Shown here piece by piece: positions 55,623-61,160 of a DNA stretch of 64,000 nt. Source of the DNA: an uncultured Bacteroidaceae bacterium (lineage in GTDB: Bacteria; Bacteroidota; Bacteroidia; Bacteroidales; Bacteroidaceae); assembly GCA_905234605.1 (NCBI GenBank), contig CAJOIE010000003.1:62001-126000 (forward strand), in the 5' to 3' direction. The stretch's first letter is position 1, and each line of letters begins with the position of its first letter. Made by a program: the position numbers and the translations under genes. Under the pieces are notes generated by a model. That model had not been told where the DNA came from, did no database searches, and saw only the letters and a program-made list of their open reading frames with translations.

Positions 55623-55671
55623 CGCCACATGCAGCCGCGCCGCAGCCTCCAAGCAAGGCAGACCGCGCCAC

Positions 55672-55758
55672 GCAGACCCTGCACCCTCAGCGCCACGAGG
55701 GTGCAGGGTCTGCATTTTCACTGTGCAGGGTGACAGGCCCACACCCTGCACGGTGTCA
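55672..55758. repeat. ACCCTGCA-type intergenic palindromic repeat, locus 6
   Basis: GCAGACCCTGCACCCTC agcgccac GAGGGTGCAGGGTCTGC then ATTTT; second hairpin GTGCAGGGTG...CACCCTGCAC (55723-55751). Confidence 0.92.
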
Positions 55759-55823
55759 GCAGCACCAGCGGCACGCCGCCGGAAAAACACAACGCAATAT
55801 TTTGCTCGGACCACAAAAGGACG

Positions 55824-55831
55824 TACATTTG
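55824..55831 (+). promoter_or_regulatory. -7 box TACATTTG upstream of tRNA-Pro
   Basis: TAnnTTTG 9 nt before tRNA 5' end. Confidence 0.6.
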
Positions 55832-55840
55832 CAACCGCTT

Positions 55841-55916
55841 CGGGGTGTAGCGCAGTTGGTAGCGCTCCTGGTTTGGGACCAGGCGGTCGCCCGTTCGAGT
55901 CGGGTCGCCCCGACCA
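55841..55916 (+). tRNA. tRNA-Pro (anticodon TGG), CCA encoded
   Basis: CGGGGTGTAGCGCAGTTGGTAGCGCTCCTGGTTTGGGACCAGGCGGTCGCCCGTTCGAGTCGGGTCGCCCCGACCA. Confidence 0.97.
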
Positions 55917-56058
55917 CATCTCCACTCAGACACACGGGTGGCACTACGCAGCTCACAGCGCGACAGGTGCCACCCGTGTGGTCGTTCATGCGCAGGCACC
56001 CCCGCCGGCAGCAGCACCCGGCAAAGCCATCACCCATCCACACCCAAACCCACACACC

Positions 56059-58605
56059 GTGAACACGCCAACAACACCCGCCGCCCAGCTCTCCGACCAG
56101 GCTGTGCAACGCCTGCGCGCAGCCCGCCGCCTGGCCGCCGCCAAGCTGGACAATGTGGAAGAGCAGCTGCAACGGTGCCACCGTCAGGCCGACCGCCTCC
56201 GCCTCTTCGTGACGCTCCGCACGGAGCTCGATGCCGCACAGAGCCGCCTCTTCGCCCTTGGCAAGCAACAGGCCGCCATGCTCACACAACAGCAGGAGCT
56301 GGCACGATTCGAGGAGTTCGAGCCCATGTCGCCACTCTTCCAGCAGCTCACACTGCTCACAGCACATATAGACCAGCTCAACAGCGATAGAGCCGACAAC
56401 AGCCGCACCCTGGCCCTCCGGCAGCAAGAACTCACCGCCGCCGACCAGCGACTCAGCGACAGCCGCAGCGAGCAGCACAACGCCCTGGACACCCTCACCG
56501 CCGCAGCCTACACCATGAGCGACGCCGAGCGCCTCACAGCCATGGCCGAAGCATGCCGCACAGCCATAACACTGGTGCAGCCCGCATGCAACAGCCTGCA
56601 CGAGCGCAGCCAGCGTCTGGCCAACCTGCTGCAAGAGACCGACACACTCATAGCCACACACACACAGCACCTCAACGACGTGCGCGCCACACTGCAAGGA
56701 CTGGAGCCACACCGCCACATGCTCGAGACAAGCCACGCGCTACTCGTGCAACTCGACGAGCTGGCCAGGGCCATGGACTGGCGCGACAGCCTCAGCATGC
56801 AGCTCGAGCAGGCCATCCGTCAGCAGAACGAGCACAACGAGCGCCTCGGCATGCTCTTCCGCAGCCACGAGGAGATAAAGGCAGCCATAGCCACCAAGGA
56901 CGCCGAGGTGCACAACCACCGCCAGGAAATAGCAGGGCGCGACACCTATGCCATGCAGCTGCGCGCACTCGACCTGCGCAGCCGTGGCCTCATGTTCGAG
57001 ACAGCCCTTGCCCTGTGGCAGGGCATCGCCGAGGGCTTCGACCTGACAGAGCACGAGGAGGCCGTCGTCACACAACTGCGCCAACAAGCCGACATGCTAC
57101 ACAAGAGCACGGCAGCCCTCGAGACCGAGATACACCAGCTGCAGCAACAGCTGCAACAACGCACACACCACTGGACCATGGCCAAGAGCCAGAACGTAGT
57201 GTGCCTGCGCTCCGACCTCAGCGAGGGCACTGCCTGCACCGTGTGCGGCTCCACCCACCACCCCTGGCACAGCGAGAGCATGCGCGAGCAGAGCGCACTC
57301 ATCACATCGCTCAAGGCCGACGTAGACAACATCAGCACCACACTCGACAACCGCCGCCACACGCTCCAGCAACAGCAGTGCCAGCTGGCAGCCATCGAAG
57401 CAAAGACAGACGTGGCCAACGAAACCATCCGCCGCTTGAACGACCGCCTGCAGCGCGACATAGCCGAATGGGCACACTTCAGCACGCTCGACAGCTCGCT
57501 GCGCGACTGCTCACGCTCCACCAACAGGCCGGCACGCACAGCCATACTGCGGCAACTCATCGAGAAGACACGCCACGACGCCGACGAGGCCGGACGCGAC
57601 CTGAAAGCCCTGACCTACCACCTCGACACCATCGACTCGCTCAGCGAGGACATACGCCAGCTGCAACGTCAGGCCACCGACCTGAGCAACACCATGGGCG
57701 AAGAAAACACCGCCTGCCAGGTGATGGCCCGTCAGACCGTGCGCCTGAACAGAGACCTCAAGGCTGCCACACAGGACTACGCACAACGCTACGATGCCCT
57801 GACGCACGCCATAACCCTGCCCGAGTGGTTCCAGCAGTGGAAGGCATCACACGAGTCCGTGAAGATGCGCATACAGGAGTTGGCCACCCAGTGGGCACAA
57901 GCCAACAGCGAGGCCGCAAGCATCAGCAAAGAGCTGGCCACGCTGCAGGCACGGCAGGAACAGATGCGGCAGTCGCAAGAGCTGACCATGCAGCACATCA
58001 CACAGATAGAAGCCATGCAGGCACGCATGGACGACATAGCCTCCAAGGCCGACGACAGCATCAAGCGGATGCCCTTCCACGAAAGCGACGCCCGCACCCA
58101 CTTCACCAACGCCGTGGCAGCACATGCCGACAGGCAGAGAGACAGCGAAGCCGCACAGCAGCAGCAACAACAACAGCAGGAACAGTATCTCACGGCACAG
58201 ATACGCGCCCGTCAGCTACAGCAGCACGCCAGCACAGCAGAACAGTCCGTAGCCGCCATCCAGCAACAGATAGACATCGCCATACGCCGCTACAACGCCA
58301 GCCACCCGCCCGTGCAGGCCGCCGAACTGACGCGCGTGTTTGCCGGCGGCAACGACTGGAACACAGTGAGGCAGACAGTGCGCCAACTGACCATCGACAA
58401 AGCCGTGGCCGAGGCACGTGTCGACACGCTGCGGGCACGCATCGTGACACTCCAGGCCGAAGGACTGCGCATCATGGACGACAACTGGCAGCGCGAACAG
58501 GACAGCCTCATCACACAGCAAGCCGAACTGCAAGACCAACGCTCACAGATACTCATGCAGATAGCTGCCATCGACGTGCAGCTGGCCAACGCCGCAGCAT
58601 CCTGA
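56059..58605 (+). CDS. SbcC/Rad50-like coiled-coil protein with central CxxC zinc-hook motif, lacking ATPase head motifs
   Basis: GTG start VNTPTTPAAQLSDQAVQ; long Gln/Leu-rich heptad-like arms either side of LSEGTACTVCGSTHHPW (CxxC at 57235-57246); no Walker A, signature or Walker B seen. Confidence 0.8.
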   Translation: MNTPTTPAAQLSDQAVQRLRAARRLAAAKLDNVEEQLQRCHRQADRLRLFVTLRTELDAAQSRLFALGKQQAAMLTQQQELARFEEFEPMSPLFQQLTLLTAHIDQLNSDRADNSRTLALRQQELTAADQRLSDSRSEQHNALDTLTAAAYTMSDAERLTAMAEACRTAITLVQPACNSLHERSQRLANLLQETDTLIATHTQHLNDVRATLQGLEPHRHMLETSHALLVQLDELARAMDWRDSLSMQLEQAIRQQNEHNERLGMLFRSHEEIKAAIATKDAEVHNHRQEIAGRDTYAMQLRALDLRSRGLMFETALALWQGIAEGFDLTEHEEAVVTQLRQQADMLHKSTAALETEIHQLQQQLQQRTHHWTMAKSQNVVCLRSDLSEGTACTVCGSTHHPWHSESMREQSALITSLKADVDNISTTLDNRRHTLQQQQCQLAAIEAKTDVANETIRRLNDRLQRDIAEWAHFSTLDSSLRDCSRSTNRPARTAILRQLIEKTRHDADEAGRDLKALTYHLDTIDSLSEDIRQLQRQATDLSNTMGEENTACQVMARQTVRLNRDLKAATQDYAQRYDALTHAITLPEWFQQWKASHESVKMRIQELATQWAQANSEAASISKELATLQARQEQMRQSQELTMQHITQIEAMQARMDDIASKADDSIKRMPFHESDARTHFTNAVAAHADRQRDSEAAQQQQQQQQEQYLTAQIRARQLQQHASTAEQSVAAIQQQIDIAIRRYNASHPPVQAAELTRVFAGGNDWNTVRQTVRQLTIDKAVAEARVDTLRARIVTLQAEGLRIMDDNWQREQDSLITQQAELQDQRSQILMQIAAIDVQLANAAAS

Positions 58606-58647: not shown

Positions 58648-59082
58648 ATGCCCTCCTATCAGCTCCGCTTCAGTCAGGAACTCGTCGACACGCTCTACGA
58701 GAAGATACTGCGCAAGATGCTCATCGAGAAACGCTATCTCGTGCCAGGCTACACCGCCAGGCAGCTGGCCGAAGAGCTACACACCAACACACGCTACATC
58801 AGTGCCACCATGTCGCGCCGCTTCGGCACCAACTTCTCGCAGCTGCTGGCAGGCTTCCGCGTGCGTGAGGCCGCCGCAGTGCTCACCAACCGCAAGACAG
58901 CCGACATAACCATGGAGGAACTCGCCACACGCTGCGGCTTCAACAGCCGGCAGGCACTCTACATAGCCTTCCAGAGCGTGATGGGCACCACGCCAAGGCT
59001 CTATCAGAACGACTTCAACGACAAACGCCGCCAAGCCGGCACAGCCAAGCCTAAACACACTACCACCACCCCCAACACATGA
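58648..59082 (+). CDS. AraC-type helix-turn-helix protein (HTH only)
   Basis: YTARQLAEELHTNTRYISATMSRRFGTNFSQLLAGFRVREAAAVL...TMEELATRCGFNSRQALYIAFQSVMGTTPRLYQNDF. Confidence 0.87.
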   Translation: MPSYQLRFSQELVDTLYEKILRKMLIEKRYLVPGYTARQLAEELHTNTRYISATMSRRFGTNFSQLLAGFRVREAAAVLTNRKTADITMEELATRCGFNSRQALYIAFQSVMGTTPRLYQNDFNDKRRQAGTAKPKHTTTTPNT

Positions 59083-61160
59083 CAACCAAAACACTCTCAC
59101 TAATGCTCATGCTCACAGCATCACTAATCACGGCATCATGCCAGAGCGCAGCCGACGCCGACAGCTCCTTCAGCTACAACGACGAGCGCTTCGCCGACCT
59201 ACAGATGCTGCGCTACCGCGTGGATGGCTTCGACCAGCTCACCCTGCGCCAGAAGACACTCATCTACTACCTCTCCGAGGCAGCACTGAGCGGCCGCGAC
59301 ATACTCTGGGACCAGAACGGACGCTACAACCTGCGCATACGTCGGCTGCTCGAAGCCGTCTACACCAACTATGGCGACAGCCGGCAGTCCGCCAACTTCA
59401 AGGCCTTTTCCGTTTACCTCAAGCGCGTGTGGTTCGCCAATGGCATACACCACCATTACGGGTCGGACAAGTTCCAACCAGGTTTCGACGAGGAGTTTCT
59501 ACGCTCTGCCATAGAGCTCTATGTGCCTGAAAGCGAGCTGCCGCTGGCAGAGGGACAGACCGTCGACGAGATGATGGCAGAACTCTTCCCCATAATCTTC
59601 GACCCCACAGTAATGCCCAAGCGCACCAATCAGGCCGACGGCGCAGACCTCGTGCTCACCTCCGCCGCCAACTACTACGGCGAGGGCGTCACCCAGGCCG
59701 AGGCCGAGCAGTTCTACCTCGCCATGAAGGAAGCCGCCCCCGACCCCGCACACCCCGTCATGTTCGGCATGAACTCACGCTTAGTGAAGGAGGACGGTCA
59801 GCTGCGCGAGCGCGTGTGGCGCAGCGGCGGCCTCTACGGCCCTGCCATCGACCGCATCATATATTGGTTGGAGCAGGCCCGCGGCGTGACAGAGAGCGAC
59901 AGGCAGGCCGCCGTGATCGACAAGCTCATTGAGTTCTACCGCACAGGCGACCTGCACACCTTCGATGCCTACAGCATACTGTGGGTGGAAGACACCGACG
60001 GCGACGTCGACTTCACCAACGGCTTCACCGAGTCATACGGCGACCCCCTGGGCATGAAAGCCAGCTGGGAGGGATATGCCAACTTCAAGGACCAGGCAGC
60101 CACCGAGCGCACCCGCAAGCTCTCGGCCAACGCCCAGTGGTTTGAGGACCACTCACCCGTGGACAGCCGCTTCAAGAAGGAGAACTGCCGCGGCATCACG
60201 GCCAAGGTCATCGTGGCAGCCATGCTCGGCGGCGACCTCTACCCCTCCACCGCCATCGGCATCAACCTGCCCAACAGCAACTGGGTGCGCGCCGAGCACG
60301 GTTCCAAGAGCGTGACCATCGGCAACCTCACCGATGCCTACAACAAGGCTGCACGCGGCAACGGCTTCCAGGACGAGTTCGTAGTCGATGCCGCCACACG
60401 CCAGCTCATCGACACCTACGGCGATGTGTGCGACGACCTGCACACCGACCTCCACGAGTGTCTCGGCCACGGCTCAGGCAAGCTGCTGCCCGGAGTGGAC
60501 CCCGACTCGCTCAAGGCCTACGGCAGTGCCATCGAGGAGGCACGCGCCGACCTCTTCGGGCTCTACTACATTGCCGACCCCAAGCTGCATGAGCTGGGGC
60601 TGACCCCAACGGCCGATGCCTACCAGAGCCAATACTACACCTATATGATGAACGGCCTGCTCACACAGCTCGTGCGCATAGAGCAGGGAGCAAGCATCGA
60701 GGAGGCACACATGCGCAACCGTGCCATGATAGCCCACTGGGTGCTCGACCACGCCACACAGCAAGCCACCACGCAAGGCACGAAGCCCGCCGTGGAACTC
60801 GTGAAACGCGGCGGCAAGACCTACGTCAGGGTGAACGACTACCCTGCCCTGCGGACACTCTTCGGTCAGCTGCTGGCCGAGGTGCAGCGTGTGAAGAGCG
60901 AGGGCGACTTCGCCGGCGCACGCACCCTCATCGAGACATACGGCGTGAAGGTCGACTCCACGCTCCACGCCGAGGTGCTGGAGCGCTATCGCCGTCTTGA
61001 TCTGGCCCCATACAAGGGCTTCATCAACCCCGAATATGTGGTGACACGCGATGCCGACGGCAACATCACCGACGTGCAGGTGCGCTACGGCGAGGCCTAT
61101 GACCACCAGATGTTGCGCTACAGCCGCGACTATGCCACACTGCCCCTTGTGAACGAATGA
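59079..61160 (+). CDS. Dipeptidyl peptidase III (M49 family), lipoprotein
   Basis: SLITASC lipobox-like; HECLGHGSGKLLPG and EEARADLFGLY zinc motifs; ATGA overlap. Confidence 0.93.
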   Translation: MTTKTLSLMLMLTASLITASCQSAADADSSFSYNDERFADLQMLRYRVDGFDQLTLRQKTLIYYLSEAALSGRDILWDQNGRYNLRIRRLLEAVYTNYGDSRQSANFKAFSVYLKRVWFANGIHHHYGSDKFQPGFDEEFLRSAIELYVPESELPLAEGQTVDEMMAELFPIIFDPTVMPKRTNQADGADLVLTSAANYYGEGVTQAEAEQFYLAMKEAAPDPAHPVMFGMNSRLVKEDGQLRERVWRSGGLYGPAIDRIIYWLEQARGVTESDRQAAVIDKLIEFYRTGDLHTFDAYSILWVEDTDGDVDFTNGFTESYGDPLGMKASWEGYANFKDQAATERTRKLSANAQWFEDHSPVDSRFKKENCRGITAKVIVAAMLGGDLYPSTAIGINLPNSNWVRAEHGSKSVTIGNLTDAYNKAARGNGFQDEFVVDAATRQLIDTYGDVCDDLHTDLHECLGHGSGKLLPGVDPDSLKAYGSAIEEARADLFGLYYIADPKLHELGLTPTADAYQSQYYTYMMNGLLTQLVRIEQGASIEEAHMRNRAMIAHWVLDHATQQATTQGTKPAVELVKRGGKTYVRVNDYPALRTLFGQLLAEVQRVKSEGDFAGARTLIETYGVKVDSTLHAEVLERYRRLDLAPYKGFINPEYVVTRDADGNITDVQVRYGEAYDHQMLRYSRDYATLPLVNE

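Follow-up and report, generated by a model that had tools for sequence, protein, structure and literature searches.

The 64,000-nucleotide (nt) stretch of an uncultured Bacteroidaceae genome analysed here (GenBank GCA_905234605.1, contig CAJOIE010000003.1, positions 62,001 to 126,000; hereafter the window) encodes an 848-residue protein that has kept the two arms and the zinc hook of SbcC, the bacterial Rad50, and has lost both lobes of its ABC-ATPase head. Its open reading frame (ORF) runs on the + strand from a GTG at 56059 to a stop codon ending at 58605. As read from the sequences, the protein lacks heads, descends from SbcC, is retained genus-wide under purifying selection and has dead-head intermediates among its relatives. 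Rad50 and SbcC are usually viewed as ATP-driven machines in which arms and hook serve the heads. In this gut-bacterial lineage, the heads of the DNA-repair complex SbcCD have been repeatedly killed or deleted while arms and hook stayed under strong selection, indicating a function of hook and arms alone. The anatomy and descent of the headless protein are well supported; its cellular role we infer. It is probably a tether or scaffold, dimerised through the zinc hook and independent of ATP, and would represent the bare skeleton of an SbcCD (Mre11-Rad50) complex. Counts for the genus refer throughout to 61 genomes of the window's genus, and most genomes surveyed are incomplete metagenome-assembled genomes (MAGs). 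The features of the gene are as follows.

56059..58605, +, headless SbcC-derived protein (arm, zinc hook, arm); ORF, SbcC-arm profile match, AlphaFold2 hairpin, presence in 57/61 genus genomes
56089..57207, +, N-terminal coiled-coil arm, approximately residues 11-383, within which lies the clade signature around W320; AlphaFold2 helices (H13-383), conservation, arm signature
57235..57264, +, zinc-hook motif CTVCGSTHHP, residues 393-402; residue conservation
57280..58599, +, C-terminal coiled-coil arm, approximately residues 408-847, ending at the would-be start of the SbcC C-terminal head lobe; AlphaFold2, hhalign end point
57469..57633, +, conserved segment at the arm apex (residues 471-525, EWxxFxxLDxSFxDCSxSTNxEAR...), also present in the headed orthologs of sister genera and largely absent from other SbcCs; arm-signature table, conservation
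58273..58329, +, arm-base motif, residues 739-757, DIAIRRYNASHPPVQAAEL; conservation, part of the motif being retained in hookless variants

Arms, zinc hook and absent heads

The hook sequence of the window protein, LSEGTACTVCGSTHHPW, is flanked by long helical arms. An initial annotation, made from the sequence alone, had placed a CxxC near residue 393; the hook cysteines are indeed residues 393 and 396 (the C393 codon lies at nt 57235-57237), somewhat before the midpoint of the protein at residue 424. C393, V395, C396, G397, H401 and P402 are invariant in 66 headless proteins, and both cysteines together with G397, H401 and P402 are present in all tabulated proteins of the intact, dead and headless states. 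The AlphaFold2 monomer model, computed from a 66-sequence alignment, is a long helical hairpin (mean predicted local distance difference test score, pLDDT, 82.7) with no globular domain. The annotation had also found no ATPase motifs, and our motif scan agrees: Walker A (G-x4-GK[ST]) and the signature ([LF]SGG) are absent from the window protein and from the 20 relatives scanned, and Walker B is absent from the window protein, whose alignment to SbcC stops before the C-terminal lobe. Since the ABC lobes are missing, no ATPase activity is expected from the headless polypeptide. General searches add little to this picture. Pfam gave no convincing match to the window protein, and NCBIfam gave weak matches to the coiled coils of SMC, archaea-specific SMC-related proteins (ASRP) and Rad50, all far under the family cut-offs. 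A sequence search of solved structures returned nothing for the single protein and, for the profile, a weak match to the ZapB coil. Foldseek retrieved SMC, MukB and Rad50 arms at low TM-scores that are informative only as "long hairpin".

Descent from SbcC

Aligned with SbcC in hhalign, the headless profile scores 99.9% over 728 columns, with the match starting past the N-terminal lobe and stopping where the C-terminal lobe begins. Taken by segment, the matches are collinear (residues 1-200, 86%; hook, 98.4%; residues 425-640, 91%; residues 640-848, 96%). Reversed controls reached 1-54%, and no signal came from residues 200-365. In the tree, the headless proteins of g1 and g203 form a clade with support of 100/100, which pairs with g196 at 93/80, some joins of this tree involving long branches. 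An arm-apex signature, W320, W471, D478 and R493, occurs in members of the intact, dead and headless states alike but is largely absent from other SbcCs, and it thus predates head loss; W471, D478 and R493 are invariant across all three states. On these profile and tree data, the arms of the headless protein share common descent with SbcC. It shares with SbcC the antiparallel coiled-coil arms, the zinc hook and a collinear profile match over most of the arm length, and its place in the tree is with headed orthologs, whereas the headless protein has neither ABC-ATPase lobe nor an adjacent SbcD. It is SbcC by descent and not by function, because both head lobes, two defining features, are missing. 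In the limited literature searched, we found no account of a hook protein that is headless by nature.

Distribution and selection

The headless SbcC-like hook protein that the initial annotation described for one genome is borne out for the whole genus. Using a profile built from 21 homologs, we found headless homologs in 57 of the 61 genus genomes, none of them with heads; the four genomes without a homolog are 62-83% complete. A scan of 295 genomes of the order gave a full-strength match only in the window's own genome and four weak matches, which are headed SbcC proteins or, in G254, a contig-edge piece of one. A scan of named genomes gave 161 loci, of which the 80 kept come nearly all from Bacteroidales/Bacteroidaceae MAGs, largely ruminant. 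No homolog was found in the viral contigs and plasmids searched. The headless gene is a core chromosomal gene and not a phage, plasmid or defence-island gene.

Close pairs of headless genes have ratios of nonsynonymous to synonymous substitution (dN/dS) of 0.03-0.14, and 29 columns are invariant among 66 diverse headless members, the strongest conservation falling on the hook, on residues 471-525 of the arm apex and on residues 739-757 of the arm base. It had been suggested that relatives with heads would mark the window gene as a degraded copy. Headed orthologs do occur in sister genera, but the headless form is not a decayed copy, given the strong purifying selection and its near-universal presence in the genus.

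Headed, dead-head, headless and hookless orthologs

Headed orthologs and INTERMEDIATES occur in sister genera. A family-wide scan found the arm type in the sister genera g194, g196 and g207 as proteins of 1195-1276 residues, and in g203 as headless proteins of ~930 residues; additional headless proteins occur within g196 (G502, G505, G492, G509). Most of the long orthologs keep Walker A (GDTGAGKS type), LSGGE and FIDEG, and SbcD adjoins the headed ortholog wherever the neighbourhood was read. Seven full-length proteins (G365, G432, G411, G473, G460, G391, G429) have a dead ATPase and an intact C-x-x-C-G..HHP hook. Their motifs include "AD-AANRD" or "GEPEGKQS" in place of Walker A and "FVQSD" in place of FIDEG; G411 has kept Walker A, but its signature has decayed to LSSAE and the catalytic residue of Walker B is gone. 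Assembly error is unlikely for G432, since that genome is a single contig. The SbcDs of G365, G432 and G460 have lost active-site residues. The SbcDs beside dead-head SbcCs at L259:4272-5501 (-), L260:1741-3072 (+) and L265:5232-6446 (-) have lost metal-site residues (motifs DWLLG/GSHD, DWYLG/GQRD/GMVD and GDSD, respectively), so that nuclease and ATPase decayed together in those species; the SbcD of G411 retains its motifs.

Counting well-supported branches only, the tree requires at least four changes to the dead state and at least three to the headless state. Between intact orthologs, conservation is higher in the heads than in the arms. The two dead-head pairs compared show the reverse, their heads diverging at least as fast as their arms; dead-head pairs were compared by dN and identity of heads versus arms, dN/dS being mostly saturated at synonymous sites. 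Hookless variants of ~615-670 residues also occur, L242 (G046), L243 (G049), L274 (G389), L326 (G490), L327 (G491) and L328 (G519), which have no heads, no hook and no apex, with the remaining parts joined in frame; for the five variants placed, the tree needs two separate origins of this state. With intact, dead-head, headless and hookless orthologs, this one family offers a natural deletion series for ATP-free hook and arm function. The retained arms and hook have been conserved and selected after head and nuclease loss, which suggests that they have a role of their own for which no ATP is needed.

SbcD-derived N-terminal helices

About half of the headless loci (42/81) carry an N-terminal extension, EELARxWWxxxYGExMPEEVxxWxKQLxRxEARR, modelled as two short helices. 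The extension matches the last ~40 residues of sister-genus SbcD in hhalign at 92.2% (reversed control, 0.2%), the match being short at 37 columns. When it was searched against 1017 targets (18 SbcDs and 999 decoys), the top 12 were all SbcD, ahead of the first decoy. Mre11 contacts the Rad50 coil at its base by a helix-loop-helix (PMC7260605, PMC3175470), and it is this C-terminal helix-loop-helix of SbcD (bacterial Mre11) that the extension of many headless members resembles; the nuclease and capping domains of SbcD are absent from the headless proteins, and the window protein is also without the helices. With SbcD lying directly upstream of SbcC, such an extension could have arisen by a deletion that started inside sbcD and ended at the arm base of sbcC. 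The Mimivirus R555 Mre11/Rad50 fusion (PMC3175470) similarly has an SbcD part before an SbcC part in one chain and in the same order; Mre11/Rad50 fusions mostly keep their catalytic parts (PMC3175470), whereas the headless proteins have only coil-binding helices and arms. The window copy has lost the helices and now begins within the arm. We looked for a remnant of the SbcD helices in the window and beside HisRS in the same genome and obtained no convincing match.

SbcCD elsewhere in the genus

SbcC with real heads was found in 6/61 genus genomes and SbcD above the cut-off in 6/61. Those of the genus SbcCs that were placed in the tree fall outside the headless lineage and thus belong to a separate SbcCD. 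Whether the window's genome holds a full SbcCD elsewhere had been raised as a check; SbcC was not found in this genome (87% complete), nor was SbcD above the cut-off, with one weak SbcD-model match under the cut-off and away from the headless gene. No SbcD nuclease gene adjoins the window's headless gene, as the annotation had noted. Heads encoded elsewhere in the genome were considered and rejected: no SbcC-like head was found, and the best SMC_N matches are RecF- and RecN-sized proteins and other ATPases. The six genus genomes with the second, distant type of SbcC are L105, L106, L107, L108, L109 and L110. Five of the six have hooks of the CPLCGQ, CPLCGS or CPVCGQ type, and that of L107 is CPLCGAVHHP. 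At least one of the six, G065, has an unusually divergent headless protein.

Proposed mechanism and alternatives

On our reading, the headless protein arose within the Bacteroidaceae, its ancestor being an SbcC with long arms that underwent repeated loss of the ATPase; both ABC-ATPase lobes have been deleted and the two arms and zinc hook kept. In many relatives, although not in the window copy, the SbcD helix-loop-helix that would grip the arm base precedes the arms. Two headless chains would join at their hooks via one zinc ion, as expected from Rad50, whose hooks serve as modules for constitutive dimerisation and can be exchanged with SMC hinges (PMC6969161). The joined pair would form an elongated rod or V that works without ATP and whose arm bases and apices bind two partners, which may be segments of DNA or proteins. 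A fuller account, which seems to us evenly poised, is that in one Bacteroidaceae lineage the SbcC arms and hook gained a job independent of DNA-end processing, as marked by the clade-specific apex signature, after which neither ATPase nor nuclease was needed and both disappeared on several occasions, giving a new class of ATP-independent "skeleton Mre11-Rad50" tethers.

Several observations weigh against a hook-dimerised tether. The hook tip and the N-terminus are among the least confident regions of the AlphaFold2 model, which is a monomer. The window protein is acidic (net charge -21, pI 5.9), and unaided DNA binding by it is not obvious. It lacks the SbcD-derived helices, its ORF not being among those scoring above 12 bits. 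In addition, hook and arm apex have been lost together in G046, G049 and G389 (g1) and in G490, G491 and G519 (g196, ~670 residues); given these hookless relatives, hook dimerisation is not essential everywhere, and in those species part of the work must fall to the lower arms.

The alternative that we take most seriously, while thinking it unlikely, is a structural coil without a DNA role, in which an envelope, division or cytoskeletal scaffold makes use of SbcC arms. Neither head nor nuclease is left, the protein is acidic, and the conservation of the arm signature points to a particular protein partner; many members begin with M(N/K)(F/L)F(R/K)K, possibly a tip that associates with the membrane. 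That same signature, however, is also found in intact-head orthologs with an adjacent SbcD and so arose in a DNA-processing complex, and no envelope-linked gene was consistently adjacent in the neighbourhoods read. It is less likely still, though conceivable, that the protein serves in trans as the arm subunit of a different ATPase of the cell, for example RecN or RecF. The window's genome does encode SMC_N-family ATPases of RecF and RecN size, but no SbcC-like head was detected in it, no ATPase gene is consistently adjacent, and ATPase motion normally reaches coiled-coil arms through a covalent connection (textbook knowledge).

The remaining alternatives are considerably weaker. Poisoning of SbcC dimers, raised in the initial annotation, or modulation of full SbcC through mixed hook dimers is chemically plausible for an SbcC-like hook; we regard it as very improbable, since SbcC occurs in only 6/61 genus genomes, and was not found in the window's, versus 57 with the headless protein, and genus SbcCs are mostly of the distant type with hooks such as CPLCGQ. 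We give hardly any credence to a decaying SbcC remnant without function. The headed gene in sister genera and the loss of heads, SbcD helices and hook, each in some lineages, would fit such decay, but the low dN/dS in close pairs (unless these are unrepresentative), the invariant columns and the ORFs kept nearly genus-wide do not. Equally slight is the chance that the protein is part of an anti-phage defence system, also suggested initially, for which the only positive sign is a set of weak PADLOC matches to LmuB, the SMC-like protein of Lamassu. These matches score like generic SMC coiled-coil matches, and the core gene lies among housekeeping genes, with homologs not found on viral contigs or plasmids. 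ASRP (PMC9389158) and LmuB resemble the headless protein by such weak coiled-coil profile matches, both of them in coils and that to ASRP far under the family cut-off, whereas both are ATPases; LmuB is the SMC ATPase, with heads, of an lmuA-lmuB defence operon, in contrast to the headless window protein and its housekeeping neighbourhood. The preferred reading remains an ATP-independent tether or scaffold.

Genomic neighbourhood

The genes flanking the headless gene in the window are as follows.

55841..55916, +, tRNA-Pro(tgg), directly upstream of the headless gene and outside the protein; not mentioned in the initial annotation
58648..59082, +, AraC-type helix-turn-helix (HTH) gene, 144 residues, usual downstream neighbour; starts 42 nt past the headless gene
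59079..61160, +, DPP-III-like peptidase gene, usual neighbour; neighbourhood reading

The HTH gene 42 nt downstream and the DPP-III gene after it, starting at 58648 and 59079, are thus where the annotation had put them. The commonest order among relatives is headless gene, HTH, DPP-III, AlkD-like, Fur and PurA, often with HisRS divergent upstream, and the neighbours across relatives are housekeeping genes (HisRS, RecQ, QueC, DPP-III, PurA). In some genomes, the headless gene is at another site, beside ordinary genes, and there the HTH and DPP-III-like genes remain adjacent to each other. A functional operon with these two genes was considered and dropped; since the pair stays together without the headless gene, its linkage to the latter looks incidental. 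Upstream of the window copy (55623-56058), recG and then tRNA-Pro precede the headless gene, versus a divergent HisRS in many relatives. A local rearrangement may have removed the 5' end of the window gene and with it the SbcD-derived helices.
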